DNA from: Sipunculus nudus | Taxonomy: Eukaryota; Annelida; Sipuncula; Golfingiida; Sipunculidae | Length of the DNA: 64,000 bases | Assembly: GCA_026874595.1 (NCBI GenBank) | Contig: CM049320.1 | Location: 27,383,214-27,447,213, forward strand | Direction: 5' to 3' | Shown: one piece after another, positions 12,610 to 45,989 of the stretch | Numbering within the stretch: the first letter of the stretch is position 1 | How the letters are laid out: each line of letters opens with the position of its first letter | The notes under the pieces: generated by a model | Told to the model about the DNA's origin: nothing | Databases searched by the model: none | The model's input: the letters and a program-made list of their open reading frames with translations, nothing else | Program-made: the position numbers and the translations under genes

Positions 12610-14865
12610 TGGGTTGGGCCAGGTACTTAAGCCCGTACCTGTACCCAGGTAAACAAGGGGGTGTGGGGGGGGGGGGGGGGGGTAGCTGTACCTTTATCAA
12701 AGTAAACAAAACGTGGTATCTGTACCTGTTCCAAGGTAAACAATGCGGGACAGCTGTACGTGTTCCTAGGTAAACGAGGCGGGATGGGAGTTCCAGTACC
12801 TAGGTAAACACTGCGGGATAGCTCTCCCTGTACCTACGTAAACAATTCGTCGTAGCTGTATCTGTACCTAGGTAAATAATGCGAGGTAACTGTACGTGAT
12901 CCTAGGTAAACAATGTTGGTCACCTGTACGTGTTCCAAGGTAAACAATGCACAGTAGCTATGCCTTTACCTAGCTAAATAATGCACAGTGACTGTACATG
13001 TCCCTCGGTAAATAATGCGGGGTAGCTCCACGCGTTCTTAGATAAACAAGGCGGGGTAGTTGTACCTGAACCTAGGTTAATAATGCGGGGTAGCTGTACC
13101 TGCACCTAGGTAAAGAATGCGGGGAAACATTACGTGTTCTTAGGTTACCCTGCGGGATAGCTCTCCCTGTAACCTGGTAAACAATACGTGGTAGCTGTGC
13201 CTGTACCTAGTAAAATAATTTAGCTACCCCGCCTTGTTTTCCTTGGAACACAAAGAGCTACCCCGCCTTGTTTACCTTGAAACACTTACAGCTACACCTC
13301 AATACAGGTACAGCTACCCCGCATTTCTTACCTAGGTGCAGGTACAGGTTCCCTTCTTAACCTAGGAATACGTAATATTACGCTTATTAATTAACCTAGG
13401 AACACGTAATGTTTCTCCGCATTATTAACCTAGGTACAGGTACTGCTACCCCGCCTTGTTAACCTCGGTACAGGTACAGGTGACCAACATTGTTTACCTG
13501 GGATCACGTTTAGTTTCCCTGCATTATTTACCTAGGTACAGGTACAGGTGACCAACATTGTTTACCTAGGATCACCACAGTTACTTCGCATTATTTTCCT
13601 GCATTTCTGCACTTCTCCTAGGTTAATAATGCGGGATAACATTACGTGTTCCTAGGTTAACAAGGCGGGGTAGCTGTACCTGTACATAGGTAAGATATTC
13701 AGGTTAATAAATAGGCGTAATATTACGTATTCATAGGTTAAGAAGGGTAGCTCTACCTTTATCTAAGTTAATATTTCGTGATAGCTGTAGGTGTTCCTAG
13801 GTAAACAAGGCGGGGTAGCTGTTTGTGTTCTAAGGTAAACAAGGCGGGGTAGCTGTCCCTGTACCTAGGTAAATAATTCGAGATAACTGTACGTAATCCT
13901 AGGTCAACAATCTTAGTCACCTATACCTGTACCGAAGGAAACATTGCGGAGTGGCTGTTCGGGTTCCTAGGTTAAAAAGGCGGGGTATCTGTACCTGTAC
14001 CCGGGTTTACAATAAGGTAGCTGTACCTGTACCTAGGTTAACCATGGGGGGCAGCTGTACCTATACCGAGGTAAACAATGCGGGGCAGCTCTACCTGTGC
14101 CTAGGTAAGCAAGACGGGTTAACTGTAGCTGTATCAAGGTAAACAATGCATGGTAGCTCTACCTGCATCTAGGTAAATAATGCGGGGTATCTGTACGTGT
14201 TTCAAGGTGAACAATGTTGGTCACCTGTACCTGTACCAAGGTAAACAGCACGGGGTAGCTGTACCTGGGTAAACAAGGTGGGGTAGCTGTACGTGTTCCT
14301 AGGTCAACAATGAGGGCTAGCTGTAGCTATACCTTGGTTAACAATGCGGGGTAGCTGTACGTGTTCCAAGGTTAAAAGGCGGTGAAGCTGTACCTGTACC
14401 TAGGTTAAAAATGACGGGTAGCTCTACATGAACCTAGAAAAAAAATGCAGGGAAGCTGTACCTGTACCTAAGTTTACAAGGCGGGTAGCTGTACCTTTAC
14501 CTAGGTATATAATGAGAGGTAACTGTACGTGTTCCTAGGTAAACAATGTTGGTCACCTTTATCTGTATCAAGGTAGGCAATACGTGGTAGCTGTACATGC
14601 ACCTAGGTAAATAATGCGGGGTAACTGTACGTGTTCAAAGGTGAACAGTGTTGGTCACCTGTACCTGAACCGAGGTAAACAATGCGGGATAGCTGTTCCT
14701 GTACCCAGGTAAAAATGTTGGGTAGCTGTTCCTGTTCCTACGTAAACAATGCGGGGTACCTATGTAAACAATACATGGTATTGTTAAACGTACTTGTAGC
14801 GAGGTACTTTCTAAAATTACCAAGACCTGCACCTAGGTACTCTTCGAAAAATATGTATAGGTAGT
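12610..14865. repeat. large ~34 bp minisatellite with an internal inverted block
   Basis: The unit is about 34-35 bases, of the form GTACCTAGGTAAACAATGCG followed by GGGTAGCTGTACCT. A variant reads ACGTGTTCCTAGGTAAACAA followed by TGTTGGTCACCT. Nearly every unit carries the palindrome CCTAGG. Units run forward from 12610 to about 13214, in the reverse orientation from about 13216 to 13600, then forward again to about 14865, where they decay. A poly-G run (12663-12682) lies in the first units. A smaller array of the same unit occurs at 38.46-38.77 kb. Confidence 0.97.
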
Positions 14866-21164: not shown

Positions 21165-22181
21165 TTAATCACGGCAACCACATCTCATGAGTTGCACAAG
21201 ATCTTGCCTGAAATGTCGGTTTGTTGATACAAGGAGGAAAAAAGGCATAATATTATAGACAATGTATAACGTCCCAGATATATCCCAAAGTATACCCATT
21301 CCTACGCCTGTTTTAATCTCCATATAAACTGTTACATTTATAGGTACCTTGCATATTATGAAGGTCAACCCAAATGAAATTGCTATAGCTCTGAACCGCT
21401 CAATTGCCTTTTTCCAGTTAGCATACACATTTTCCCCCAATGTAGCTGCACTATGTTTTGCACGAATCATTGTGTTTAGTGTAATTGCACCGGACACTAT
21501 CAAAACCACAAAAATCAGGCTGTCGTAAGCTGACTGCAGAAAAGTACCAGCACGCACGGTGTCTCGCTCACATGTCATATGATCAAAATCTGGTATAAAA
21601 AATACTAAACTACAAACGGAAATATTAAAGATAAGGATTGAGAGAGCTGAGAGGTTTACACGCCTGTATGACCAAAGATCGGATGCTTTGAATGGTAAAC
21701 ACATGACACCAGCCTGCATTACATTGATGGCGGCAACTAAGGAACCAGAAGTGACGTTAGGGAGAAATATCAAAATGGCAGTTACTTCACAAGGCCAGTC
21801 AGTAATAAAAGGTCTTACAATGGACATGGTATTAATCATAATGTGACATACAGATAGCGCAAAGAAGTATCCAGATATGGACATGGTCCGCATGTTGGAT
21901 CTTTGTGTCACAATAGCAGATAAAGCACTCAACAATAAACCTACGACAGAAAAACTTTGAATGGAGTGCACAATAAAAGGGTTTGGCACAAAATGACCCG
22001 ATTGAATCGTGTCCGTTACAGACATACTGTCATTCCCGGTAATATCTTTCTCAGTACCCACTTGAGTGCTCAGCTCTGTTGGTCTCGATGCGTTCGTTAC
22101 CAGCGGATTGCCAGTGCTCGTCAACACCTCTGCCAGCAGGGAGTGCCATCTGTTGGTGGCTGTTGTGGTTTCATTATCCAT
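21165..22181 (-). CDS. divergent rhodopsin-like (class A) GPCR
   Basis: The frame from the first in-frame ATG (22179-22181) gives 338 residues. The open frame extends a few codons upstream to a likely splice acceptor (TTTCATTTCCAG|G, exon edge 22227), and a stop lies just beyond that, so a 5' exon is likely. Residues 1-65 form a Ser/Thr-rich extracellular tail with NxS/T sites at 3, 30 and 50. Seven hydrophobic segments follow: about 69-91, 101-124, 133-157, 177-197, 213-237, 264-287 and 296-318. Cys131 (after TDWP) and Cys204 can form the TM3-ECL2 disulphide. HFRQDL after TM7 resembles helix 8, and a C-terminal CGC could be palmitoylated. The usual switches are replaced: DRY by MQA (155-157), CWxP by CKVP (277-280), NPxxY by MPFFL (312-316). 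The ligand is unknown. A broken paralogue lies at 50.3-51.3 kb. Confidence 0.85.
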   Translation of the reverse strand: MDNETTTATNRWHSLLAEVLTSTGNPLVTNASRPTELSTQVGTEKDITGNDSMSVTDTIQSGHFVPNPFIVHSIQSFSVVGLLLSALSAIVTQRSNMRTMSISGYFFALSVCHIMINTMSIVRPFITDWPCEVTAILIFLPNVTSGSLVAAINVMQAGVMCLPFKASDLWSYRRVNLSALSILIFNISVCSLVFFIPDFDHMTCERDTVRAGTFLQSAYDSLIFVVLIVSGAITLNTMIRAKHSAATLGENVYANWKKAIERFRAIAISFGLTFIICKVPINVTVYMEIKTGVGMGILWDISGTLYIVYNIMPFFLLVSTNRHFRQDLVQLMRCGCRD

Positions 22182-22226
22182 TTCGCTTTGTTGGCTCACG
22201 GTGTTGTCCCCCAAATAAGAGCGAGA

Positions 22227-22241
22227 CCTGGAAATGAAACG
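22227..22241 (-). promoter_or_regulatory. splice acceptor upstream of the GPCR exon
   Basis: The minus strand reads CGTTTCATTTCCAG|G. A matching GCATTTCAG|G occurs at the same place in the paralogue at 51284-51287, which supports a real intron boundary retained since duplication. Confidence 0.5.
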
Positions 22242-22860
22242 GTTTATAACGATAGTTCGTCGTACTTATTAAACTAGAGGCTTATTCACCAAATTATTTG
22301 TGTGTGATGCTGTCTTTCATATTCCAAGGATTCCTGCTAAAGAATTTAATCCAGTTCCCTCTTGTTATTGGCAAAAGCGGTAAACAGGAATATCATCTAA
22401 TCAGTGTCCTTTTTAGGTATATTTTATATAAAATTGAGCTGTCATATATACAGATGTTAAGGAGATCTACCAGGGAAAATGACATGTAATTGACACCAAC
22501 ATCGTTCTGTTGAATAATCATTATACTACTCTGGATATCCTTCCAAAAAAGAAATACACTTGAGAATAAAGCTCTGATAAAACACACCTGAAACGTCATA
22601 GGATACTATATCGGTGAATATATTCTTGTTATTACGGGTTCCGTGCGGTAAACGTTTTTTTATATATGTTAATTTTGAACTTCGGTGTGTGTTAAGAAAA
22701 CTACTCATTCCTGAAGACTTATTACTAAAGTAATTAGAGTGAATGATAAAATGGCAACTATTAAGTGGTCTTGATAAATGGGCGATAAAACATTTAAAAT
22801 AATTTAATTAAGATATTTAATATTAAAGACGTTTATTTATCAAGGTATATTCATGAACCC
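22242..22860. other. probable intron or upstream DNA of the GPCR gene
   Basis: Short ORFs on both strands without support. Nothing recognised. Confidence 0.4.
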
Positions 22861-25938: not shown

Positions 25939-25947
25939 TATATATAA
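25884..25947. repeat. (TA)n microsatellite abutting a retroelement terminus
   Basis: The TA run ends directly against the ATAAGTGATATAGCCGTGTT terminus of the next feature. Confidence 0.95.
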
Positions 25948-26158
25948 TAAGTGATATAGCCGTGTTAGCCTGTAGTTGAAGTGAAAGTTAAGATAAATAG
26001 TGACACTTTTAGATAGACTAACCAGTTTATTAACACACGAGCTTTCGAAGTACAAAAACTTCTTCGTCAGGTGGTCTTTGTACTTTGAAAGCTGGTGTGT
26101 TAATAAACTAGTTAGTCTATCTAAAAGGCGTCACTATTTATCTTAACTTTCGCTTTTA
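25948..26158 (-). mobile_element. Penelope-like terminal repeat, inverted, hammerhead-like core
   Basis: Two arms (25980-26040 and 26090-26155) are inverted copies sharing GTTAGTCTATCTAAAAG and GTGTGTTAATAAACT. Read on the minus strand the centre gives CTGACGA (26064-26070), then a GAAGT/ACTTC hairpin with a 6-base loop, then GAAA (26043-26046). This is the order of a hammerhead core (CUGANGA - stem II - GAAA), with one extra A before stem II. The phrase 'GGTTAGTCTAT...ACAGGCTAACACGGCTATA' resembles termini I recall from animal Penelope-like elements, which are reported to carry hammerheads. It is flanked by (TA)n on both sides and has no reverse transcriptase. Confidence 0.55.
26043..26070 (-). 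ncRNA. hammerhead-like core (Penelope-type)
   Basis: CTGACGA, a 5 bp stem II and GAAA are intact. A short stem III (AGC with GUU, one wobble) would put UUA as the cleavage triplet, which is allowed (NUH) but not optimal. The flanking inverted arms could supply stem I or form a competing fold. Confidence 0.4.

Positions 26159-28502: not shown

Positions 28503-28560
<58 letters not shown>
28503..28560. repeat. (TA)n microsatellite at the left edge of duplicated unit A
   Basis: TA run directly before the duplicated unit. Confidence 0.96.
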
Positions 28561-28561
<1 letters not shown>

Positions 28562-28601
28562 GTTGTATAGAAAGCTCTAAACAGGTTTTCTGCAGGCATT
28601 T

Positions 28602-28660
28602 CATGACTAATTATTTCGTATAACACGCTCACAGCATGGAGACCTCTTCAGATATTGTTC
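28602..28660 (-). ncRNA. hammerhead-type motif, copy A (stem II degraded)
   Basis: Minus-strand order: CTGAAGA (28645-28651), 27 bases, GAAA (28614-28617), TAATTA, GTC (28605-28607), ATGAAATGCC. All core elements and the 27-base stem II spacing are kept, but stem II no longer pairs well and position 15.2 is T opposite G. It is probably inactive. Confidence 0.45.
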
Positions 28661-28710
28661 GGCTACAACATCTGAAGAGTGCCACACGCTCTGCGCGTAT
28701 GATATTGGGG

Positions 28711-28764
<54 letters not shown>
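28711..28764. repeat. (TA)n microsatellite beside hammerhead copy A
   Basis: TA run with one GTA interruption, directly following the half-inverted hammerhead copy. Confidence 0.95.
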
Positions 28765-28768
<4 letters not shown>

Positions 28769-29215
28769 AATGACACAATAGTCCTGGAAAGTATTATTAA
28801 ACATTAATACTTCTTGAAACTTACTCGCTCAAAAACTAAACTAAAATGTTATCTTCAATTATGCTCAAATGTCCTCCAGGATTAACATGTCTATAGAATT
28901 ATGATGACCATTCATGCAGCCATTGCTGAGAAATTAGGAAGGTTGTAAAAAAATTATGAATTATGTAAAAGAGATTTATTTCGAAGAACTTTATGAAAGT
29001 GTCCCTACCAGTGCTGACGAATTTTATTTAATTTTCTTTTGTGACATTTTTTAAAAGGACCTGTAGTGGGCTCATAGTTCAATTTATAAACAAATACAAG
29101 TTAATCGCACCAGTTGATTACAAACAGGGACATATACAGGAATTTAGTTTAGGGAAATGAGCAGATGCGGAGTGTATAAGAGTGGGCAACCACCTCTCAT
29201 AATGTAGAAACTTTA

Positions 29216-29373
29216 AAAAAAATAGGCTGTACTGTTGTTAGACTAGATACTTTAAAAAGTATCATGATGCAAAATCCTACAAGGTTCTTATCAGCAGGTC
29301 ATAAGACTCAAGTCACTCCTCGTGTTCGAACTGCTACTATTTTATAATAAATCTTTGCATTCATTCTGTTGAA
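29216..29373 (+). pseudogene. LINE-like ORF C-terminal remnant, copy A, left part
   Basis: Paralogous to 41170-41376 in copy C, including GGTCATAAGACTCAAGTCAC and GTGTTCGAACTGCTACT. In-frame stops break it (TAATAA at 29346). The frame resumes after the inserted TIR element (30882-30927). It resembles the end of non-LTR reverse transcriptase ORFs only weakly; see copy C. Confidence 0.35.
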
Positions 29374-29376
29374 TAA

Positions 29377-30878
29377 AGCCCCGTTCCCACTTTCACGAAT
29401 TTGACGCCGAATCGCCACGATGTTGAATTCGTGGCGATTCGTGGCCAATCGGCCTGTCGAGTGATAAAAATTCCATCACGACCACGATATTGTACGAAAG
29501 GAGTACGATGCCAGTACGATTGGCTACGACAGTGACCCGAAGCCAGCACGATATGACACGACACTTTTAAACATGTTCACGGCTCAGTGACGACGTCTAA
29601 GATACTGGTACGATATTTCCACGATTGATCTGCGACTTGTGGACGATACTCCTACGATCATTCAATTTTGCTACGGATTGTTAGATAGCTATATATGCGA
29701 TATATGGCTATTGTAATGTCACAAAGAAGACGATATTAGTAAAAGGACACCATAACAACACTTTACTCAACTTCTCCAGATATTTTAATTTGACAAAAGT
29801 TATCCAGGTTAAAACACTGATAATATATGTCTCATTTTATTTGAGTAATTAGACAATTACGACTTATTTATGTGGTGGCAAATACGATGTTAACATCCTA
29901 AGTCCAAGTAGACGACCGTCTTAATCGAATGTAAAATATCTGAATTCTCAAAATATTGGTTAAAATATCTTATTGATTCAGCTCTCAATGTGATATAAGA
30001 TTCTGTTAATATCAATTTGTGTTAGGCTCAGTTTATTCTCCCATAGTAAAATAGGAAATTCATAATTTATGATATTGACCATATGTTTATGTATGACGAA
30101 ACTGTATAATATATTCAGCTTCTTTAAACTGTTTTGGTTCAAATTTATTTTGTCAACCAATATTAACGATAAAAAAATTTCTTTAAAACAAATTTACTAA
30201 TCTACATGGTTTACTCACTGCAAAAACTTCCTTTTTTGTTTACAAAGAAGATACAAATTACAAAAGAAACGTAATTTGATTCAGCTTCTTCAAATTATTT
30301 TAGTTCAAATTTATTTGGAACCAATAACCACAATACAAATCTTCTTTAAACAAATTTACAAATCTACACAGTGTTCTTACTTCTAAACCTTATTCCTCAT
30401 TGGTTTGTAAGAAGTTAAAAATCACTAAGAAAATAAAATTTTCCGTAACATTATAATGTCAGTTCTTGATGATTCGTCACCAAATTCGTGGAAGTAGGAA
30501 GGGGCTTTATGAACGTGACTCTCTCTTGAGAGTTTCTTGTGGTAGTCGTTTTGTAGTCGTGTTGAAGTCGTGTCGATGTCGTTGTCCTTCGTGAGCATTC
30601 GTGACATTGTTTTACATCACGAATTTACAAGAATTAAGAAGACTCTCATACGACTTACCAAGAAACTGTTACGACTTAGCTATGACTTGTGACGAAAAAG
30701 CTTAATTTTTGAACATTTCAAAAATAGCGCCACGAATTCTGAGTGCTCAAGACCTCGCTACGAACATTACCGAATGTTCAAGACATCATCTACGATTCTC
30801 CCACGAGGTCCCTACGAATTTTAATGATGTAAGTTCGTGGCGATTCGGCGTCAAATTCGTGAAAGTTGGAACGGGGCT
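29377..30878. mobile_element. PIF/Harbinger-like TIR element, TAA target duplication
   Basis: A 1502 bp insertion. The termini are inverted repeats of 44 bases with one mismatch, starting AGCCCCGTTCC and continuing ACTTTCACGAATTTGACG. It is flanked by TAA (29374-29376 and 30879-30881). Copy C has the uninterrupted site GAATAAACTACCATATC (about 41324-41340), so the insertion and its target duplication are resolved by an empty site. A 3 bp TAA duplication fits PIF/Harbinger. There is no transposase ORF. The interior is full of short ACGA/TCGT motifs, as in nonautonomous elements with subterminal repeats. Confidence 0.88.
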
Positions 30879-30881
30879 TAA

Positions 30882-30927
30882 ACTATCATATCAGGCCGGT
30901 TTAGTGGACCCTTTTAAAGGGACCTAA
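30882..30927 (+). pseudogene. LINE-like remnant, copy A, right part
   Basis: Continues the frame split by the TIR element. The peptide YQAGLVDPFKGT* corresponds to YQDGLSVDTFKET* in copy C. Confidence 0.35.
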
Positions 30928-31365
30928 TACGTACAAATAATGTAGAATTAACACAACAAATAGCGACTTCTCTTTAAAAAAATATGGTTCCTGCCAAAAT
31001 TTAGCCCTGAAATCGTTGGCTAACTCGTGTACACGAGTGTTAGAATACGTGGACCGGGCGGGATCACTGGCAGCAGTATTATACAACCGTGCACCTTAAT
31101 GTATGGACTTATTCTATACATAGGTCTACAGCAACTGTCAATCAGGGGATGCCTTGACTGATATTTGTCAAAGTCCGTGTTGCCATGGCTCAGTGATCCG
31201 ATCCAAGGATGCTGCGAATGTCATTTTAGATGAGGGCCCTAAACCTATCGCAAAATTTGGCGATATGTTCTACAATGCCTTTACATTCGACCAAAGGACC
31301 GAATTATCATGCAGCATAGATATATCTATGATATGTCAGAAGACATGTATGGACTAGCCTAGTGT

Positions 31366-31377
31366 CGCGCATGCGCA
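31366..31377. promoter_or_regulatory. NRF1-type palindrome (copy A)
   Basis: CGCGCATGCGCA matches the NRF1 consensus YGCGCATGCGCR. It is identical in copy B (33800-33811) and differs by one base in copy C (41817-41828). Confidence 0.4.
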
Positions 31378-31696
31378 AAATCGTACCTCCGGTCAAGCGG
31401 CCTATTTGTTATTAGTGTACTCATTATTCCGGAAAATTTTATTCGGAGACCAATAGGACCATGATGCACCTCCGGGACGACGATTCCATAAATATGTATA
31501 TCGCCTTTGTCTTAAATTACCACGATGACGGAAAAGGGGTATACAAAACTTTTAATTATAGACAAATACAGATAGGAGAGTTTGTATTCCATATACTTCA
31601 TTGAGATTTAAGAGTGATTTATGTAGACATCATTTATGTATATTACTTTCTCGACCAATTTGTTTATAAGACATATTTGGCCATGCCTGGTGGCAG

Positions 31697-31704: not shown

Positions 31705-32344
31705 TTTAATTAGTTATACCCCAAGACGAATCATACGAAATTGTATTTACTAACTATAATATATCACTCTTTTCGCCTTTTGACGTAAAGGAGGCGACCA
31801 CAGTATATTTTGTTATTTAGTAAAATTTAATAAACTCGCTTCATTCAATAACACCATTTTTTTCATTACAATAGTATGCTTTTATTCAGGTATTTAATAT
31901 CATGTCTATACATGATGTGTTTTGTAATCTAATCAAATACCTAGGGAGCCTTCTTCCGTTTCATGTGGTTCAAAATAGAACGTCAAAATGCGAAATATAT
32001 TCAACCTGATAGTTCTTCATCCTCTGAGTAAGATATGAGGCATACCCTGTGTAAAATATTGATTAGGAATTGGAAGCGTATGGAGCTACAAGTCCGCTTT
32101 ATATGTTAACAAAGAGAATATGAAAACTGTACGAATCCATTAGTGCCCTATTGGTAGAATATATCGCGAAAATGATCAGTTACGTGTTTTCATGCTGTCG
32201 CAATCCTCAGATGTTATATGTGAACGTATGATAAAATCTGATGATTGAAACAGCATGTAAACATGTCTCAAAGTGTAATAAACCTTTTCCATATTATAAA
32301 TATGTTGTTTAGAAAGATCTAAACCAGATTTTCTGCAGGCATTT

Positions 32345-32400
32345 CATGACTAGTTAGTTTCGTACCACACGCTCACAGCGTGTGGCACTCTTCAGATGTT
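32345..32400 (-). ncRNA. hammerhead-type ribozyme motif, copy B (best stem II)
   Basis: The minus strand reads CTGAAGA (32389-32395), then a 27-base hairpin (32362-32388) of 12 consecutive pairs with one G-U and a GTG loop. GAAA follows (32358-32361), then C, the 6-base loop TAACTA and GTC (32348-32350). C15.2-G16.2 and A15.1-U16.1 close a minimal stem III. Cleavage would fall after GTC, before ATGAAATGCC. Stem I is short (CAT with ATG, three pairs). Short-stem-III type I hammerheads are reported in Penelope-like elements and animal retrozymes. A half-inverted copy upstream (32400-32440) could form a competing palindrome. Confidence 0.6.
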
Positions 32401-32446
32401 GTCAAGGCTTCAACATCTAAAGAGTGCCACACGCTCTGAGCGAATG

Positions 32447-32450
<4 letters not shown>

Positions 32451-32499
<49 letters not shown>
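32451..32499. repeat. (TA)n between hammerhead copy B and an inverted repeat
   Basis: TA run bounded on the left by the half-inverted hammerhead copy and on the right by GCGAAAGTTGAGATAAACAG. Confidence 0.96.
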
Positions 32500-32500
<1 letters not shown>

Positions 32501-32630
32501 CGAAAGTTGAGATAAACAGTTACGCCTTTGAGATAGACTAACTAATAAACTAGTTAGTCTATCTAAAAGGCGTAACTGTTTACCTAAACTTTCGCTTCAA
32601 CTACAGACTAACACGGCTATACCACTTATT
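32500..32630 (-). mobile_element. Penelope-like inverted terminal fragment, core deleted
   Basis: The two arms GCGAAAGTTGAGATAAACAG and its inverse (32500-32545 and 32552-32596) share GTTAGTCTATCTAAAAGGCG. They are followed by ACAGACTAACACGGCTATAC, as in the element at 25.95-26.16 kb. The central CTGACGA..GAAA part present there is missing, leaving a long near-perfect hairpin. Confidence 0.6.
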
Positions 32631-32631
32631 A

Positions 32632-32647
32632 CCATATATATATATAA

Positions 32648-32700
<53 letters not shown>
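32632..32700. repeat. (TA)n microsatellite
   Basis: TA run with two AAA interruptions directly after the inverted fragment. Confidence 0.95.
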
Positions 32701-32703
<3 letters not shown>

Positions 32704-33222
32704 CGATGAAACAACCGTGCAGGATAGTTATATCAAATATTAATACTTCTTTAAATTAACTCGCTTTAAGTTCAGCTAAAAATGCTCAACTTCAACAAAA
32801 TGCTCAAAACTCCTCTAGCATTAACATGTGTATAAAATTTGATGACCATTCATGCAACAATTGCTGATAAATCCAGAAGGTTGCATGTGAATTATGTAAA
32901 AGGGTCTTATTTCGAAGAACTTTAGGAAAGTGAACCAAACAGTCCTGACAGGGTTTTCTTACGTCACAATTTTTTAAAGGGCCTGATGAGGGCTCGCTGT
33001 TAATTTATGAACCTTTATTGCCCGTGTTGAATACAAACCTCGGCGGATACTTGAATTTTGATTAGGGAAATTAGCAGATGCGGATTGCACTAGAATGGGC
33101 AACCACCCCTAAAAATGTAGAAACTTTTCGGCTCTCTTCTCTTTAAAATAATTAGGTACCTGCCAAATATAGCCCTGGGATCGGTGGAAAACTCCTGTCC
33201 ACGAATGTTTGAATACGTGAAC

Positions 33223-33660
33223 CGGGCACGATCACTGGCACCAGTATAGTATAACCGTGCACCTTCATGTCTGGACTTATTCTATATATGGGTCTACAGC
33301 ACCTGTGAATCAGGAGATGCCTTGACTGATTTTGCCAAAAGTCCGTGTTGCCATGGCTCAGGGACCCGATCCAAGGTACTGCGATTGTCATCTGATGTTG
33401 GCTCGCTGTTCAATTTATGAACTTTTATCGCCAGTGTTGATTACAAACAGGGGCGGATACTGGAATTTAGATAAAGGAAATGAGCAGATCGGGCACGATC
33501 ACTGGCACCAGTATTGTACAACCGTGCACCTTCATGTCTGGACTTATCCTATACATGGGACTACAGCACTTGCGAATCAGGGGATGCCTTGACTGATTTT
33601 GCCAAAAATCCGTGTGGCCCTGGCTAAGGGACCCGATCCAAGGATGCTGCGATTGTCATT
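33223..33660 (+). repeat. internal tandem duplication within copy B (period ~267)
   Basis: CGGGCACGATCACTGGCACC starts at 33223 and again at 33490. Both copies run through AACCGTGCACCTTCATGTCT to a CCGATCCAAGG region. The linker between them (33398-33489) repeats 32985-33075. Copies A and C have a single version, so this arose in B after the larger duplication. Confidence 0.85.
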
Positions 33661-33799
33661 TTAGATGAGGGCCCTAGACATGTCGCAAATATGGCGATAG
33701 GTTCTACAATGGCTTTACATTCGACCAAAGGACCGAATTATCATGCAGCACAGATATATCTATGATATGTCAGAAGACATGTATGGACTAGCTTAATGT

Positions 33800-33811
33800 C
33801 GCGCATGCGCA
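33800..33811. promoter_or_regulatory. NRF1-type palindrome (copy B)
   Basis: CGCGCATGCGCA, identical to copy A. Confidence 0.4.
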
Positions 33812-33879
33812 AAATCGTATCTCCTGTCGAGCGGACTTATTATGGTTAACTCATAAGCAGAACCATAATATCTCAGAAC

Positions 33880-34140
33880 TATGGCCTGTTGGAACAATGA
33901 CCTCTAGGAAAAATGGCCTCTTGGACCAATAACCTGTTCGACAATTGGCCGTTTGCGCCAACCTCAGCAGGACCAATATTCTTTTTCAGTAAAGGCCTGT
34001 AGGAACAATGGCCTCTTGGAACAATGACCTCTAGAAACAATGGCCTCTTGGAACAATTTCCTATTCGATCAATGGCCGGAAGGGCCAAGCCCAGCAGGAC
34101 CAATGTTCCTTTTTACTAATGGCCTGTAGGTCCAATTGCC
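33880..34140. repeat. ~17-18 bp minisatellite, two higher-order blocks
   Basis: Units like ATGGCCTCTTGGAACA repeat in two blocks. Each block ends with AGCAGGACCAATRTTC, then CTTTTT. Copy C has one such block (41880-42015). The period, near a multiple of three, keeps the minus strand open and yields spurious Gly-His-Cys-Ser-Asn-Arg-Pro ORFs. Confidence 0.85.
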
Positions 34141-34616
34141 TGACGGAATTATGAGCTTTCGCACCAACATTGAAGAGAAACTATCTAGTAGTTGGCAAGA
34201 CATAAACTCAACTACAGCATTTATAATTTTTTTCCCGACAATTTCAACAGTAACTCACTCTACTTACTCTTTCTCTTTCGCTCTGTTACCCCTGTTAGCC
34301 TTTTTTTTCGTTCGTCAGAGTTGTTCCTCAAATCGCCTTTGTGTTTACATATTTTTCATTTCGTTAGTATTCCCAGGATTATTATTTAAAACTTCCATTT
34401 ACAAAACCTCTCAAATAATCTTATACAAATATCTGAATTAATGCAGGTTGTGTAAGTCATTTAATGTTTCTTTTAATATATACATAGTTAAGTTGTATAT
34501 CTGTTCTTTATTTGCACTTTGCAAAGAGTCTCATGTACTACTCATTAAAAAGTCTTAAAATTAGTGTTGAGATTTCTGACGATATTCTATTATGTTAGAG
34601 TTGTTTATGCTTTGAC

Positions 34617-34930
34617 CGACTGACGTGGTCATGGGGTTAAGCACAGGGTTCAAAGCTGGGTGTCGTGACTTCGAATGTCAACCGAGACAGCCCCACCCAG
34701 GATGAGCGCTATGAAGGGGATACTGCAGAACATTTGTGTTTCACTCACAAACGAGTGCCCCGTATAAGGGTTCCTCGGTGTCATGACCCAGCAAGCGGGC
34801 ATAACACACACCCACCCAGCATCCGCAGGAGTGGTGCACTGAGACTTTCGAAACCAGAAGCCCCCGTCATGTAGTCCGAAATCGAAATGAAATTCTGCAG
34901 ATGTATATAGATTTTAGTTAAGCAAGAATA
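34617..34930 (+). mobile_element. tRNA-derived SINE, copy B
   Basis: Paralogue of the better preserved SINE at 42474. The B box has decayed (ACTTCGAATGTC). Its position relative to the neighbouring unit sequence is the same as in copy C, so it was present before the duplication. Confidence 0.55.
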
Positions 34931-36388
34931 AATCATGCCGGCGGTTACCTCTAGCAATTTTTTTTAAGTTGGTTATGACTCTGCCCGTATATGTGCTTGT
35001 TTGATTTTTGATGTTGATCTATTGGTTTTATTTGTTGTTGATCGTTCTTGGCTTCACTCACCTGAGGTAGGGCATTAACAAATTTGATAACAGAGATAGT
35101 TTTGATCTATAAAATACTGACTACATATAAGGAAATGTTTACATTTACCAATATACCTCATATTTTACTAATTCTAATTAGTCCATACCATAAGGCAAAT
35201 ACTTTTCATTTACTCATCCGAGTGAATTGTAGTTCCCACATCCCTCCCTACCAGGGAACATCAGCTCATTTTCTCTTGTCCTTGTAGTAACAGTCCAAAT
35301 CTCATTACGATTAATCCGTTCATGGTTTCGAAAAGTGTGGTTTACAGAGAATCAGCTAAGCAGTCTTCTTAGATCAACAGTGTTATTCAAATCCATGTAA
35401 CCATGATGAAAATAATCAACAGCTATACTGTATGATGAGATCTCGGGATCCATGGGCATCTCTCTTATTGCTCTTGTAGTGAAAAAGTTGAAACCAACGT
35501 ACACAGCTGTTTTATGGATTTGTGAAGTTACCGGTCAACTGATACATCCAAATTTGGTTGTCCTCGCGACGACAGTGGACAGCTTTCGTATTGTACAAAT
35601 TGAAGGCCGCCATTGACGTTATTTGTTTAACATGTATAGTTAACAACTCTTCACTTACTGACCTTGCATTTAGATTATTACAAACGACTATACGACATCA
35701 CAGCTTTAATGATTACACAATGTGTTTAATATATCTTATATTCAGAAACACGACGTGCTGATTACTGAACATTTGATCGATAATGACCCATTTAGATTTC
35801 ATGCTCACCATAAATTCCATGACGATGTGCAGCATCATAAGTGGACTTCGTTCTGACGGGCCCTTGTATCTGATTAACGGACATCAGAGATTTATTCTGT
35901 ATGTGTCACAATATTATTAATTTTATTTGCAAATTTTACATTAGAAATTGACGAGCCAAATTCATTTAGTATTTACTCTGAGCCTGGCCTTTGTTAACAA
36001 CAAGCAGTTTTTGGGCGAGGATTTGGCGTATTAAAGCTTGCGGTCATAGATAAGGAAACCCTGATCAGTTCAAACGTGACACTTTCGCCTCTAGCGCAGA
36101 TATCTTAATGTGTCGGCTTATCGCACTGTCACTGCCACTGTCCTCTGACTGTTTCGATCTAGTGGGGTCCTCATAAAACCTATGTGATTGACCATATAAA
36201 AATGCACTAAAGAGAGCCAGTGCACATTCATAAGATTTTTCATGCAAGCAACGTTCCTGACAATAAATTTCTAGGCTTTATTTTAAAAGTATATCATGTT
36301 TAATTGTAGAATATATACTTCAGCCTTGCCCTTAAGTTATTGTTTCTCCCACTTGCATTTAGATGTAAGCCATATTCATGTTAATTAA

Positions 36389-36391
<3 letters not shown>

Positions 36392-36429
<38 letters not shown>
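36392..36429. repeat. (TA)n microsatellite
   Basis: TA run at the same position as a longer compound repeat in copy C (44740-44858). Confidence 0.95.
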
Positions 36430-36432
<3 letters not shown>

Positions 36433-37365
36433 CTAAATGCAACAACATGGTCAAAGTCAACAAAGTAATTATAATATTATTATTGCACAAATAAGCATTT
36501 TATATTGACTTAAAGATATCTGCAACTCAATATATTAAGTACTGACTGTACTCAGCTCGGTGAGTGCCTTTGTCTCAGGGTACTGTAAGTTCAGATCGTG
36601 ACATCTTCCCGTCATTTACATGATAATCGCCTACTACCGAACCTCGCGCGACAGATCTTGTTTAAGATGCGCAGGGTCATTCATGATCAAAAGAACAGTT
36701 TACCTTAGTTGAAAAATGGAGTTAACGATAATAAATGTAAAAGGACATTGAAGATTTGCTTAGATTTATGTATAATAATAGTGGCCATGAGGCTTTGTTT
36801 GTGGGTGTTGTCATTTCATTTTAATATTTCCTGAATTATGCACCCTAAAATCAAAAAAGCCCTTTTGAAAAAAATGTATAATGGAACATTAAGGAGCATA
36901 ACAAACAAACCCCTTCATACGTTGTGAAAGTGTTTTCATAGCACAACATAGGAAAATAGACATCTGTCTATATTGAATCAAGCGTGCTTGCATTGGCGTA
37001 AATTTATCTTAGAATTTATCAAAACACTATTATTGTTCCCACATGCCTCGCGTACAACAGTGGCAACCAATAAGTTTTCATAGTTGTCGACTAAATGTCG
37101 CGTATCAATTGATATACGGTCAAACCTCTTTTATTCGCCCCTTGTTCATCCGCCAACCTCGCCTATCGCCAATAAATGATAAAGTCCCTTTATCCTTACT
37201 ACTTATAAAAGTCGTGTATGACATGATGTATGCCGTTTAAAATAGGGTAAATTTAATAATGGTGACGTTTTAGGTTATTCATTCAAAAGAAGATAGGATC
37301 AGAATAATATAAATGCCGCTGTAGCCACGAGATGTCCCTCGTCTACGGCCACTATGGGGAGACGC

Positions 37366-38455
37366 ATAATAGACACAAAGTGCACTGTCAGTGCTAAGGG
37401 ACAAAATAAAATGATGGTGAACTGAACAACTAAAAGTCTACGCTGTATCGCCACCATGTGATTTTGGTCAACTCTATTTTGCCTTTGTTTCCCTGGTTTG
37501 GCAAGTACAGGGCGGGGCGAAATTTAGGATCAATCAAATCTGGAATGCAAGGAACGGTGCGATTTCGGTTTTTGCTCAGTGACTCGCAAAATGATCAGCT
37601 ATGGTCTAAAGATAGAATATGGCCGTGTTAACTCTCCGGTAGCTACGTTTTGAAGCAGCCTTGTCTATTTCATAAAATTTGATCAGGTAAGCGCTAGAGG
37701 CATTTCAAAATCATAACAGCCAATCAATCCAAATGAAACACATTTAAAATAGAGGAGTGAAAACAATTTACTGTTCACACGAAGTTATGGACACGAATTT
37801 TGCACCAGAAATAGGAAAAGTATAGAAGCCTTTATTTAAATGTTCGGATCCTCGACCCTTTCTGATAAAGCTTTGATATAAAAATAGCAAATATTGTTTC
37901 GGTTGCTCCGTACAAGTAAGTCAATGTAAGTCCTTCGGTTGGTCAAGTTGTATTAATTATCATTCATCAAACTGAAGAAAAGAGCATGTTGTTTGAAGAA
38001 AGGAGGCTTAAGCCTAATTACCTGGAATAAAAACCAAACCATAAGAAGAAAACAATATACGAAACACAATGAAATCAAGGTATTAGAAAGCGGTCTAACT
38101 TTGAAGCATCTCATCTTTTGTTATTGGAGATCACGATGAGTGATTACGCGCAAATAAAGCTGCATAAAAAAGCTTAGCATTGGCTGCATTGTGTCACAAC
38201 TATTAAAATCAAACGGAGCGCGCAGATTGAGGCTAGCAGACGCCGTGTCTGATGACCAACAGATCCAGCGGGCTGCAAAACATAAATACTATTTTATATA
38301 AAGAGATTTTTTACATTATATTAGGCCTTTGGTCACTCCATTACTTGACTATATGATGATATCAACGTTTGGTGCCTTTCATTCTCCCATGACACTTGTA
38401 AGCATATTGTGGTGCATTATATGGAAATTTAGATATGTATAGTATTGTAAATCGT
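37366..38455. other. spacer between duplicated units B and C, nothing recognised
   Basis: No ORF, repeat or RNA feature supported. Confidence 0.45.
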
Positions 38456-38459
38456 GTTT

Positions 38460-38770
38460 GTGGCTAGGTATTTAAACTAGTACCAGTACTAAGTTAAGCA
38501 ATACGGGGTACCTGTAACTGTACTTAGCTTAAAATACGGGGTACCTGAACCTAGGTAAACAATGCGTGATAGCTGTACCTGTTTATAAGTAAACTATGAG
38601 GCATACCTGTACCTGTACCTAGGTAAACAATGTTTGGTACCTGTACCTAGGTAAACAATGCGGGGTACCTGTATCTGAACCTGGGTAAACAATGCGGGGT
38701 AGGTCTACCTGTATCCATGTGATCGTTGTGGTACCTGTACCTGTATCTAGGTAAAAAATGCTAAAAAATG
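38460..38770. repeat. second array of the ~34 bp CCTAGG minisatellite
   Basis: Roughly nine units of GTACCTAGGTAAACAATGCG, then GGGTACCTGTA. This is the same unit as the 12.6-14.9 kb array but with GGTACC rather than GGTAGC in many copies. It ends abruptly at ...GGTAAAAAATGCTAAAAAATG. Confidence 0.95.
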
Positions 38771-39970: not shown

Positions 39971-40421
39971 CAGTGAAATCAATAATTAGTTACCTGGCAG
40001 GTGGGGCGATTCCCCCATGTCAACCGAGTTCTCCTCCTCCCGACCAGTTAGTCCAGGAAAAGATAACAAATACAATGGCTACACTGATGGCCGTCGGCTT
40101 TGGGTATGTAAATATTATATATAAAGATAAAACCTAACACATTAACACCCCCTCCCCTAAATAGATTTGCCAACCAACACCCATTTTATAAGGGTCCGAT
40201 ATATATGTAAACGAAGAGTATATGAATCCTGAACGAATCCAATAGTGCTCTCTTGGTGGGATGTAAAAAGCTGATATACAGAATATATCATGGAATGTCA
40301 TTTACGCATTAACACGTGTTTTCATGTGGTCGCAATAGTTAGATGTGATCTGTGAACGTCTGTTATTATCTTTCAATTGCAACAGCATGAAAACGTGTTA
40401 ATGTGAAAATGATCATTTTCA

Positions 40422-40424
<3 letters not shown>

Positions 40425-40465
<41 letters not shown>
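40425..40465. repeat. (TA)n microsatellite left of hammerhead copy C
   Basis: TA run in the equivalent position to the TA run before copy A. Confidence 0.95.
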
Positions 40466-40469
<4 letters not shown>

Positions 40470-40530
40470 ACATACATACATACATGTTGTATTGAAAGGT
40501 ATTGGTTTTCTTGGATTCCTGCAGGCATTT

Positions 40531-40590
40531 CATGACAAGTAAGTTTCGTACCACACGCTCAGAGCGTGTGCCACTCGTCAGATGTTGCTA
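40531..40590 (-). ncRNA. hammerhead-type ribozyme motif, copy C
   Basis: Minus strand: CTGACGA (40575-40581), a 27-base hairpin (40548-40574) of 12 positions with a single G-G mismatch and a CTG loop, then GAAA (40544-40547). C, the 6-base loop TTACTT and GTC (40534-40536) complete a minimal stem III. CTGACGA still satisfies CUGANGA although it differs from CTGAAGA in A and B, so variation falls at the free position 7. The ATGAAATGCCTGCAG flank after the predicted cut is identical in A, B and C. Confidence 0.55.
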
Positions 40591-40628
40591 AGCTACAACA
40601 TCTGAAGAGTACCACACGCTCTCAGCAT

Positions 40629-40629
40629 A

Positions 40630-40680
<51 letters not shown>

Positions 40681-40737
40681 TATATGCATTTATATATATA
40701 TATATATATTTATACATAAATATTTATATATATTGTG
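40629..40737. repeat. (TA)n microsatellites beside hammerhead copy C
   Basis: Long TA run then shorter ones separated by TGCATT and TTTATACATAAA. They follow directly after the truncated inverted hammerhead half (CTGAAGAGTACCACACGCTC). Confidence 0.95.
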
Positions 40738-41169
40738 ATGCAACAACAGTCCTGTATAGTAATATCAAACATTTATACGTCTTGAAATAAACTCCTTTTT
40801 AAATTAAACTAAAAACAATTGTTCAACTTCAACTTAATGCTCATATGTCCTTCAGGATTAACCTGTGTATAGAATTTGGTTTACATTCATGCAGCCATTG
40901 ATGAGAAATTAGGTAGGTGCGAGTGGATTATGTAAAATATTCTTATTTGGAAAAGCATCATGAAAGTGTCCCGACCAGTCCTGACAGTGTTTTATTTGAC
41001 CTTCTTTGTGACAATTTTTTAATAGGGCCTGATGTGGGCTCGTAGTTCAATTTATAAACAAATACAAGGGAATCGCCCCTTAATTACAAACAGTGGCAGA
41101 TACAGGAATTTAGAATTGGGAAATGAGCAGATGCGAGTTGTATTAGAATGAGCAACCACTCCTATAAAA

Positions 41170-41376
41170 AAGTTAGGCTGTACTGGCGTAATCTTGGATA
41201 GATTAAAAAGTATCATGATTCAAAATCTTATAAGGCTTTTATCAACAGGTCATAAGACTCAAGTCACTTCTCGTGTTCGAACTGCTACTTTTTTACAATA
41301 CATGTTTGCATCCAGTCTGTTGAATAAACTACCATATCAGGACGGTTTATCGGTAGACACTTTTAAAGAGACCTAA
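41170..41376 (+). pseudogene. LINE-like ORF C-terminal remnant, copy C
   Basis: The open frame from 41194 (MDRLKSIMIQ) ends VRTATFLQYMFASSLLNK, then LPYQDGLSVDTFKET*. The pattern of an aromatic block, 'N-LP', then 'S-DTFK' near a stop resembles the end of CR1/Jockey-type reverse transcriptase ORFs (FF..S...WN.LP....S.D.FK). The match is short and no catalytic domain is present, so this is an inference. The same frame occurs in copy A, broken by the TIR insertion. Confidence 0.35.
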
Positions 41377-41816
41377 TTACATACAAAAATGTTGAATTAA
41401 CACAACAAATAGCGGTTTCTCTTTGAAATAATATGGTTCCTGCCAAAATTTAGCCCTGAAATCGCTGGTTAACTCGTGTACACGAGTGTTAAAAAACGTG
41501 GACCGGGCGCGATCACCCGTACCAGAATTGTACAACCGTGCACCTCCATGTTTGTACTTATCCTTTACATTGGGCTACAGTACCTGTCAATCAGGGGATG
41601 GCTTGACTGATTTTTGCCAAAAGTCTGTGTTGCCGTAACTCAAGGACCCGATCCAAGAATGCTGCCAGTGACATTTTAGTTGAGGGCCCTAGACCTATCG
41701 CAGAATCCGTAGCGATAGCTTCTTCAGTGCCTTTACATTCGACCCAAGGACCGAATGTCCATGCGGCAGAGATAAACCATGATATATCAGAACACACGTT
41801 TGGACTAGCTTGTTGT

Positions 41817-41828
41817 CGTGCATGCGCA
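41817..41828. promoter_or_regulatory. NRF1-type motif (copy C, one mismatch)
   Basis: CGTGCATGCGCA, a single C-to-T style change relative to copies A and B. Confidence 0.3.
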
Positions 41829-41879
41829 AAATCGTACCTCCGGTCAAGAGGCCAACTCAGTAGCAGAACCGTGACATCT

Positions 41880-42015
41880 CGGAGCAATGGCCTGTTAGAA
41901 CAATGGCCTGAAGGAGCAAAGGCCTGTTGGAACAATAACCTGTTCAACCAATGGCCGTATGGGCCAACCTCAGTTGGACCAATGTCCTTTTTCATAATGG
42001 CCTGTAGGACCAATT
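41880..42015. repeat. ~17-18 bp minisatellite, one block
   Basis: Counterpart of the two-block array in copy B. Units resemble ATGGCCTGTTRGAACA. Confidence 0.8.
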
Positions 42016-42473
42016 GCCTAGCGGAATAATGAGCCTTCGCACCAAAATAGGAGAAGAGCTTTCTAGTAGTTGGCAAGACTTAGACAACGCTACAGAATTT
42101 ATTTTTTTTTGCGACAACATCAATAGTAACTTATTCTACTTACTGTTTTTCTATTCTGTAGTCCGTTCCGCTACCCCTGTTAGCCTGTTATGTTTATCGT
42201 TGTTTACATATTTTCATTTAATAGGTATTCTCAGGATTATTACTTCGAATTGCGATTTACCAAACCTCTAAACTAATCCGATACAAATATTTGAATTTAT
42301 GCATGTTGTGTAAGTCTGTTAATGTTTCTTTAAATATATCCATAGTTAAATTTTATTTATGTTCTTCATTTGCTCTGGGCAAAAAGTCCCATCTACTACT
42401 CACTCAGTCTTAAAATAAGTGGGGAGATTCTTTGACGATATTCTATTATGTTAAAGTTGTTAATGACTATACT

Positions 42474-42795
42474 GGCTGCCGTGGTCATTGGGTTGTGCAC
42501 AGGACTCAAAGCTGGGTGGTCGTGAGTTCGAATCTCAACCGAGGCGGCCCCTACCTAGGATGAATGCTATGCAGGCTTAACGGGGAGATTGCCGAACATT
42601 TGTGTTTCACTCAGAAACGATGGCCCCTTATTGGTTCCTCGATGTCATGACCCAGCAATAGGGGATGGCACACACCAAGCATCCGCAGGACTGGTGCACC
42701 GAGCCGGTTGAAACCAGGAGCCCCCATCACGTTTTTCGAAACTGGAATAGAATTCTGCAGATGAACATAGATTTTAGTAAAGCTTGAATAAACAA
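42474..42795 (+). mobile_element. tRNA-derived SINE, copy C
   Basis: The head is tRNA-like. An A-box-like GTGGTCATTGGGTTG (42481-42495) is followed by a B box, GTTCGAATC (42526-42534), inside a GTGAG/CTCAA arm. The two are spaced as in tRNA genes. A unique body follows, with AACATTTGTGTTTCACTCA and AGCATCCGCAGGACTGGTGC, ending in an A-rich AATAAAC. The copy B homologue has a weaker B box. There is no coding capacity. Termini are approximate because no target duplication was identified. Confidence 0.6.
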
Positions 42796-44738
42796 TGATG
42801 TTACCCCCAGCAACAAAAAATAGTTATGACTATGCTAGTGTATGTGTTTGTTTAATTTTTTTTATTCGGATCTGTTGGTTTTATTTGTTGTTGGTAGTTT
42901 TTGGCTTGACTTTCCTTGGGTAGGGTATTAAAGAATATGGTAACAGAGATGGTATTGATCTACAAAATACTGGCTACATATAAGGAAATATTTAAAAAAA
43001 ATTCAAAATATAAACCTCATTTTTGGTATTCTAATTAGTACATACCATAAGGCAAATACTTTTCATTTACTGATGCGAGTGAATTTTAGTCCCCACATCC
43101 CTCTCTACCGGGGAACATAAGCTCATTTTCTCTTGTCCTTGTAGTAACAGTCAAAAACTTACTACGATTGATCCGATTCATGGTTTCTTTGAATTCAGAG
43201 CTTCCTCATATTGAAGAATGAAATAAATTAGCCTCTATTACATACGTAATATTTCATTACTTTTCTGAAGTGAGGGTTAAAGAGAATCAACTATGCAGTC
43301 TACTTAGATCAACCATGATCAATAAACAAGAACTTTACTGTATGATGAGATCTTTCGATTTATGGGCCAATGGCCACCCCTTTTATTGCACTTGTTGTAA
43401 TAAAGTTGACACCAATGTACAAAGCTCTTTTTGGATTTGTGAAGTTACCGGTCTACTAACTCATTCAAATTTGGTTGTCCTCACGATAACCGTGGACAGC
43501 TTTCGTATTATGCAAATATAAGGCCGCCTTTGACGTAATTTGTTATAATGTATACTTAACAAACTCTTCATTAACTCACTGACTTTGCATCTAGATCATT
43601 ACACACAACTATACAGCATCACATCTTTATTGATTGCACAATGTGTTTCATATATCTGATAGTCAGTACCATGACGTGCTGATTACTGAACATTTGATCG
43701 ATAATGAGGCACTGAGATTTCATGCTCACCATAGAATCCATGGCGATGTGCAGCATCAAAGTTGACTTCATTGGGACCGGCCCTTTTATCTGATCAATGG
43801 ACATAAGAGATATATTCTGTATGTGTCACAATATTATTATATTTTCCCTTCTCCTAATAGGTGTATCTCAGATTTCCTTTTACCTTCAACTTTGCATCAT
43901 TTTTCTTTTCTCCGTTGTTTTTTATCATATTTCATTACAAATAAATTTTCCTTAGAGCATAATTACTTTTAAATAGTTGTAGTAGGTTTGGATGGTCACC
44001 AAATTTAAACTTACTTATACAATGTTTTGCAATTATGACCATTTTATAATGTCAATGGTTCTTTTAATAACAAAACAACATGTTCTTTCCATCTAGCACA
44101 AAGTCTAATTTTCCTTCTACAAACTTCGAAAGAGGTCAGCAAGTACTACACCCTACAAAAAAAAGTATCAAAATATTATTCATTTTATTTGCAAAATCTA
44201 CATTCGAAATTGACAAGCCAAACTTATTTGGTTCTGCCCTGAGCCAGGCCTTTGATAACAACTAGCAGTTTTTTGGCCAATTAAAAGATAATGCCCTGGC
44301 TCATGACAAACAGTACTTATCAAACAGAAACCAGGAACATATATTGAAGGGATATATTTAATACCTGGACCACAGCGATCGAGGATTTGGCGTATGTAAG
44401 CATGCACTCATTGTTAAGGAATCCCTGCTCAGTTCGACGGTGACACTATCTCAATTTGTAGGCTTATAGCACTGTCACTGCAACTGTCCTTTGTCTGTTT
44501 CAATCTTGTGGGGTTCTCATAAAACTATATATTGAAATCTGATTTGAACATATAGAAATTAACTAAAGAGAGCTAATGCACGTTAATAATATTTTGCCTA
44601 CAAGCAACATTCCTGACAACAAAATGTCTAGGCTTTATCTTGATTAGTTTATCATGTAAAATTGTAGACTATATACTTTAGTATTGCCTTTAAGTTATTG
44701 TTTCTCCAACTTGCATTTAGATGAAAGCCATACTCATG

Positions 44739-44786
44739 TTAATGTCTCTCTCTCTCCCTCTCTCCCTCTCTCTCTCTATATATATT

Positions 44787-44858
<72 letters not shown>
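44739..44858. repeat. (CT)n-(TA)n compound microsatellite
   Basis: CTCT/CCCT run followed by TA runs. Confidence 0.95.
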
Positions 44859-44859
<1 letters not shown>

Positions 44860-45514
44860 CTTATATGCAACAACATGGTCAAAGTCAATTAAGTTAAATT
44901 TTTTATTACTGCACATACAAGCTTTTTATATTGACCAAAAGATATGTGAAACTCTGCAAATCAATCTATTTAGTACTGACTGTACTCAGTTTAGTGCGTG
45001 TTTATGTCTCAGGGTACTGTGTGTTCAGATCGTGATATCTCCCTGTGATCTCCCTGATAATCGCCTGCTACCAAACCTCGCTCGACAGATATTGTTAAAG
45101 ATGCGCAGGGCTAATTATGATCAAAAGAACATCATACGTTAGTTAATAAGGAAAATATAAACGATAATCAGAGTAAAACAACTTGGAACTTTTCCTTAGA
45201 GTAATGTATAATACTAGTGGCCATGCGTTTTTGTTTGTAGGTGCTGTCAATTCAATTGGCGATTTCTTGAATTATCCTTCCTAAAGTCACATTTAGACAT
45301 ACCTGTCACGAAGCCCTTATGAGAAGAGGTATAATGGAATATTTAAGAGCATAAAAGGCGAAGCCTTTCATACGTTGTAAATGTGATTTTCAAAGCACGA
45401 CATGGAAAAATGGACATCTTCTTCTTATATTATATCAAGCGTGCGTGCAGTGGCGTCAATTTATCTTTCAGCTAAGGCGCTGGGGTGTGAGTCGCTGCCT
45501 CGCACATTGACACA

Positions 45515-45520
45515 CACACG

Positions 45521-45551
<31 letters not shown>

Positions 45552-45570
45552 ACATATATATATATATATT
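45515..45570. repeat. (CA)n/(TA)n microsatellite
   Basis: CACACACGCACA followed by TA runs with ACATACAT interruption. Confidence 0.9.
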
Positions 45571-45989
45571 GGTGTGTTATGTTTGTTTTATATAAGTTAT
45601 TCTATCCCAGGTTTATATATAATATTTCTTACTAAACAGCATTCCCAAACTGTGGTCTTAACACAATATGCAATTTGCATTTAGATCATAATCTTGAAAT
45701 TGAATATAATTTCACACTCATTTTAGAATTGGTTCAAACACTTTTGTTGCTCCCACATGCCCCGCGTACAACAGTGGCAGCCATTTGGTTTTCAGAATCG
45801 TCGACAAAATGTCCTGTATGACATTATATATGCCTTTAAATTCTACTAAATTTAATAATGGTGACGTGTTGGGTCATTTATTCAAAGGAGGGTAGGATTA
45901 GAATAACGTGCCCTTGTACCCACGAGATGTCGCTCTTCTACGGTGGGTAGACGCATAATTATGTCTTGCCGTTGTCGTCTTCGTCGTAG

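Follow-up and report, generated by a model that had tools for sequence, protein, structure and literature searches.

Animal genomes often contain type I hammerheads, whose place in the life cycles of Penelope-like elements and retrozymes is unsettled in the part of the literature compared here. The minus strand of Sipunculus nudus DNA around 32345 of the window (the whole stretch of 64,000 nucleotides that was analysed) has the look of such a ribozyme, apparently in non-coding DNA, and this raises the question of what the sequence is: a working ribozyme, a piece of a mobile element, the remains of one, or a palindrome that resembles a hammerhead by accident. The sequence is referred to as copy B and its relatives in the window as copies A and C.

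The motif and its Rfam match

The motif belongs to a known kind, the type I hammerhead. All hammerhead core positions are present in copy B, from C3 (32395) to C17 (32348), and the complete minus-strand core claimed by the sequence-only reading matches the sequence. The core follows the order CUGANGA, GAA, A15.1–U16.1 and H17, and is surrounded by three stems with the end of stem I open, as in type I; stem I has 3 bp and is weak, stem II has 11–12 and stem III has 3. Stem II had been counted as 12 contiguous pairs with one G–U. The G–U pair and the length hold, while the strict count is 11 and the twelfth pair is the loop-closing U–A. Stem III, earlier described as minimal, can now be given as three pairs (A–U, C–G and U–A) closed by a 4-nt loop. 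From the hammerhead model the cut is predicted between 32348 and 32347, in agreement with the site proposed after 32348. Three pairs for stem I is right for copy B; in the enforced fold of copy C, three more pairs (GCA/UGC) are predicted past an A/AAA internal loop, and loop II reads UCUGA.

Table 1. Features of the hammerhead locus and of related sequences, in window coordinates
Feature	Position	Strand	Detail
Small hairpin in 3′ extension past cleavage site	32307..32324	-	7 bp, 4-nt loop; imperfect in A, weak in C
Whole type I layout, copy B	32345-32398	-	stem I CAU/AUG, core, stem II, GAAA, stem III, GUC
Stem I, 3′ strand	32345..32347	-	AUG
C17	32348	-	predicted cleavage-site residue
Stem III	32349..32358	-	ACUAACUAGU (region also given as ACTAACTAGT)
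Core G12 A13 A14 and A15.1	32358..32361	-	GAAA; sequence and Rfam alignment
Stem II	32362..32388	-	loop UGUGA
Catalytic core, C3 to A9	32389..32395	-	CUGAAGA; sequence and Rfam alignment
Stem I, 5′ strand	32396..32398	-	CAU
Upstream inverted copy of the ribozyme's 5′ half	32411..32435	-	25 contiguous pairs with 32377-32401, 9-nt loop
(TA)25 tract, high-coordinate side of B	32450..32499		
Separate insert in AT tract of B	32499..32633		46-nt inverted arms and one-sided AC-rich end
Copy A	28603..28654	-	core letters kept, stem II broken
Copy C	40531..40584	-	CTGACGA core, one G–G mismatch in stem II, stem III 2 bp
Segmental duplicate A	28505..31403		interrupted at about 29378-30878
Segmental duplicate B	32092..37370		
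Segmental duplicate C	40194..45959		
Minimal helix-III-less hammerhead-like core	26043-26070	-	CTGACGA..GAAA, in insert about 25945-26157

A covariance-model search had been named among the checks of this motif, the lack of a hit counting against it, and its outcome was divided: it speaks against the motif at the curated threshold and not at a relaxed one. At the gathering threshold, Rfam gave 0 matches in the whole window, for copies A, B and C alike. At a relaxed threshold, RF00163 (Hammerhead_1) matched 32345-32398 (-) with just 16.8 bits, where the gathering score is 34, the E-value being 1.7 in 2001 bases and 0.07 in 83 bases. In the alignment every core position of copy B is matched, all three stems are formed, and no non-standard pair is marked in the stems shown; stem II of copy B is longer than that of the model. 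No Rfam hammerhead match was obtained for copy C at E up to 10. Because the RF00163 gathering threshold is missed, copy B is termed a hammerhead motif and not a curated family member. Its self-cleavage is a prediction. As a type I hammerhead motif it is nevertheless supported, as originally proposed, by the complete core, by stems II and III and by the chance controls (see below).

Duplicated copies and the inverted arm

Copies A, B and C are alignable over about 145 bp, and their core letters are identical except at the free N7 position. Self-comparison of the window, in which rows of less than 100 bases and rows inside two 34-bp satellites were dropped, places each copy in one of three tandem segmental duplicates, which are mostly 73–89% identical with a weaker stretch (67%) at the low side of B and C. 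Because all three share this duplication, A, B and C are taken as one ancestral motif; three independent insertions are ruled out, as the homology extends for kilobases. AT tracts are found on both sides of A and C and only on the high side of B. Taken in the sense of the ribozyme 5′ strand, the upstream arms of A and B both give GUGCCAC, matching B, and therefore the stem II of B is likely the ancestral state. Within duplicates B and C, 16 bp tandem repeats (GAACAATGGCCTCTTG and variants) are located at 33876-34141 and 41881-41956, and imperfect palindromes lie at the low side of the two copies (32182-32266 and 40274-40437). The 34 bp tandem satellite itself is present as two mutually similar patches, 12679-14780 and 38541-38761.

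The sequence-only reading had passed over three things: the duplication shared with A and C, the lack of clear constraint (see below) and an inverted arm upstream of the ribozyme. Positions 32435-32411 are the reverse complement of 32401-32377, which hold the 5′ strand of stem I, the CUGAAGA core and the 5′ strand of stem II. In addition, an outer stretch (32437-32442) pairs with 32370-32375. For a 116-nt RNA of copy B including the arm, a free energy of -61.7 kcal/mol was predicted (z -10.1 against 200 shuffles), compared with -27.3 kcal/mol when the hammerhead was enforced; the 25 bp hairpin is thus predicted to be better by 34 kcal/mol. For copy C with its arm the corresponding predictions were -56.2 and -27.5 kcal/mol, a gap of 28.7. 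On removal of the arm the hammerhead was still not the predicted minimum, the gap being 5.2 (81 nt) and 3.1 kcal/mol (68 nt) for B and 8.2 and 7.8 kcal/mol for C. None of these energies, with or without the arm, includes tertiary contacts or magnesium. A transcript starting upstream would form the 25 bp hairpin first and the hammerhead should not form; the hairpin should win in time too, because transcription reaches the arm first. Two further structures were considered and set aside. A second, plus-strand hammerhead made from the inverted arm was rejected by eye, as the arm extends only to loop II or slightly beyond and is not followed by GAAA. A self-duplex of stem III (-5.4 for B) was left unused, its register being apparently wrong for a hammerhead dimer.

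Origin of the element

The reading we prefer, with a probability of about 0.68, is that copy B is the degenerating remnant of a retroelement of about 145 bp with a hammerhead, which was tandemly duplicated with the surrounding several kilobases and has since drifted. The element would be retrozyme-like or Penelope-related, a likeness and not a proven membership of either family. Its first site would have been an AT-rich tract; the duplication would then have put it at three places, where it drifted. When active, its RNA would have cut itself after the GUC ending at 32348, as the hammerhead model predicts. The inverted arm may have arisen by self-priming or strand switching, and long transcripts of today's copy would mostly fail to cleave, with weak activity at best where the RNA starts between the arms. 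The relic reading finds support in the loss of stem II in A and of one of its pairs in C. It is also supported by other inverted, AC-tailed inserts in the same window and AT tract, with an anatomy that is Penelope-like by comparison with excerpts of PMC3846280.

The sequence-only reading had placed the motif with the compact hammerheads of Penelope-like elements and animal retrozymes, in which stem III is short. The 3 bp stem with its 4-nt loop brings it nearer to the animal retrozymes, and the remainder of that placement found no counterpart in a tandem repeat or in adjacent Penelope coding sequence. Animal retrozymes were described, in excerpts of Cervera and de la Pena 2020 (PMC7229834), as tandem repeats of 150-450 bp with type I motifs and a short stem III. 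It is possible, though doubtful, that the present element is a solo monomer of such an animal non-LTR retrozyme, transcribed, excised by its hammerhead, circularised and copied back into DNA, with the inverted arm as the normal self-paired rod of the circle. The type I order, the GUC triplet, the short and small-looped stem III and the low G+C context are shared with the non-LTR retrozymes of that source, and the ~150 bp scale is near the lower end of the published animal repeats. The self-paired RNA is another likeness, with 70–73% of bases paired in the predicted circular fold. Against this, the animal retrozymes in those excerpts are tandem, from dimers upward, each repeat with its type I hammerhead, whereas no tandem array of the element is present in the Tandem Repeats Finder list and one copy is found at each of the three sites, one per duplicated segment. 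The ends of a monomer are not defined, and the short stem I, the inverted 5′ half upstream and the decay also depart from the published elements.

Equally tentative is the proposition that the element represents a solo inverted terminal repeat from a Penelope-like family other than the one at 25.9 kb. The arms of copy B are inverted head to head with the apex beside the 5′ end of the ribozyme, in an AT-rich setting, and an inverted head-to-head arrangement near AT-rich DNA with the ribozyme beside the junction is likewise found in the parts of the Penelope literature consulted. Inverted pLTRs, junction palindromes and a one-sided 31 bp tail were described in excerpts of PMC3846280, and a preference for AT-rich targets in excerpts of PMC11167929. 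Two inserts in the window also carry inverted arms and a one-sided end. The first, at about 25945-26157, forms a long palindrome (-103.4 kcal/mol), has an AC-rich end on one side only and looks like a Penelope-like inverted terminal repeat. The second (32499-32633) is its relative, 88–93% identical in pieces, without the central part. A to C have an inverted layout like this one, without sequence likeness to either insert in the self-comparison, and this absence speaks against a Penelope-like origin. So does stem III: the Penelope-like hammerheads, carried in pLTRs, were described as minimal type I motifs without helix III in excerpts of PMC7761336, PMC6155905 and PMC11167929, whereas copy B has 3 bp. 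Moreover, no Penelope coding sequence was found adjacent, and no reverse transcriptase or GIY-YIG domain was detected by Pfam in 10 of the 36 ORFs of at least 90 codons; that search gave three weak matches only, all below the curated cut-offs.

The hammerhead-like core inside the insert at about 25945-26157 has a stem I of CAC/GUG, AGCU in the place of stem III and a stem II of 4 bp that is preceded by an additional A. Up to an E-value of 10, no Rfam hammerhead model matched it. A literature search found no paper mentioning the AC-rich end stretch. Elsewhere in the window, two related open frames, 21168-22265 (-) and 50708-51139 (-), are about 65% alike in DNA and have by eye the look of seven-helix receptors; neither had a Pfam match at E up to 0.1, and 21168-22265 had no meaningful PDB match.

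It is improbable that the locus represents a distinct dispersed hammerhead element, in which a single short unit in AT tracts would use its own inverted 5′ half as an off switch and only RNA started or cut between the arms would cleave. A limited literature search found no hammerhead accompanied by its own 5′ half in inverted orientation. Relatives outside the window were sought with motif patterns in viral_contigs and genome_contigs, which hold viral and prokaryotic sequence and hardly any eukaryotes, and 0 were found in each. The combination would offer a small natural test of ribozyme silencing by an alternative hairpin, and such a unit would also test whether inverted units arise by self-priming. 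If the present copy is a decaying relic, it would alter little.

Constraint and chance

A functional, conserved genomic ribozyme, for example one that lies within an intron or a UTR of a gene that was duplicated, is very unlikely. The core letters are kept in all three copies, and the identity of A and B is 122/140 in the element compared with 325/418 in the right flank (Fisher p 0.02). This somewhat higher identity could reflect constraint or conversion. The other two comparisons resemble the flank, with 110/137 against 312/411 for B and C (p 0.35) and 104/135 against 336/426 for A and C (p 0.63). In five further B/C blocks the identity ranges from 76.5 to 84.2%, and in none does it differ from that of the element (p 0.30 to 0.62). 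The alignments thus give at most weak evidence for constraint on the element and no clear sign of selection, and constraint was dropped as an argument for function, as the element resembles its flank in two of three comparisons. A duplicated gene was likewise rejected, since no consistent codon periodicity was seen by eye in five aligned block pairs, with one segment near 31175 skewed 16/3/7, and Pfam gave only the three weak matches mentioned above in 10 of 36 ORFs. Furthermore, A has a broken stem II and C a damaged one, and the inverted arm is predicted to trap the fold.

That a palindromic insertion element came by accident to have its arms between CTGAAGA and GAAA is hardly credible: the stretch is strongly palindromic anyway and the Rfam score is weak, but stems I and III and the UH step also fit, and the following controls stand against it. 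A descriptor consisting of CTGANGA, a stem II of at least 4 bp, GAAA, U16.1–H17 and a stem I of at least 3 bp matched only copy B in the window; copy C fails it because of the one G–G mismatch in stem II. At least one match occurred in 37 of 1500 dinucleotide shuffles. This number fell to 11/1500 when the second stem III pair was also required (stem II of at least 4 bp) and to 1/1500 with that pair and a stem II of at least 6 bp. Because shuffles fail to reproduce real palindromes, the real hairpins of the window were counted as well. Both flanks, CTGANGA and GAAA, were found on one of 88 hairpins of at least 10 bp, one of 292 of at least 8 bp and one of 1258 of at least 6 bp, where neighbouring registers of one hairpin may count more than once; each time the hairpin was that of copy B. 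The loose pattern CTGANGA..GAAA, whose excess is another point in favour of chance, has 9 occurrences in the window where 3.74 would be expected, a count reached in 1 of 100 shuffles, and three of the nine matches are copies A, B and C themselves.
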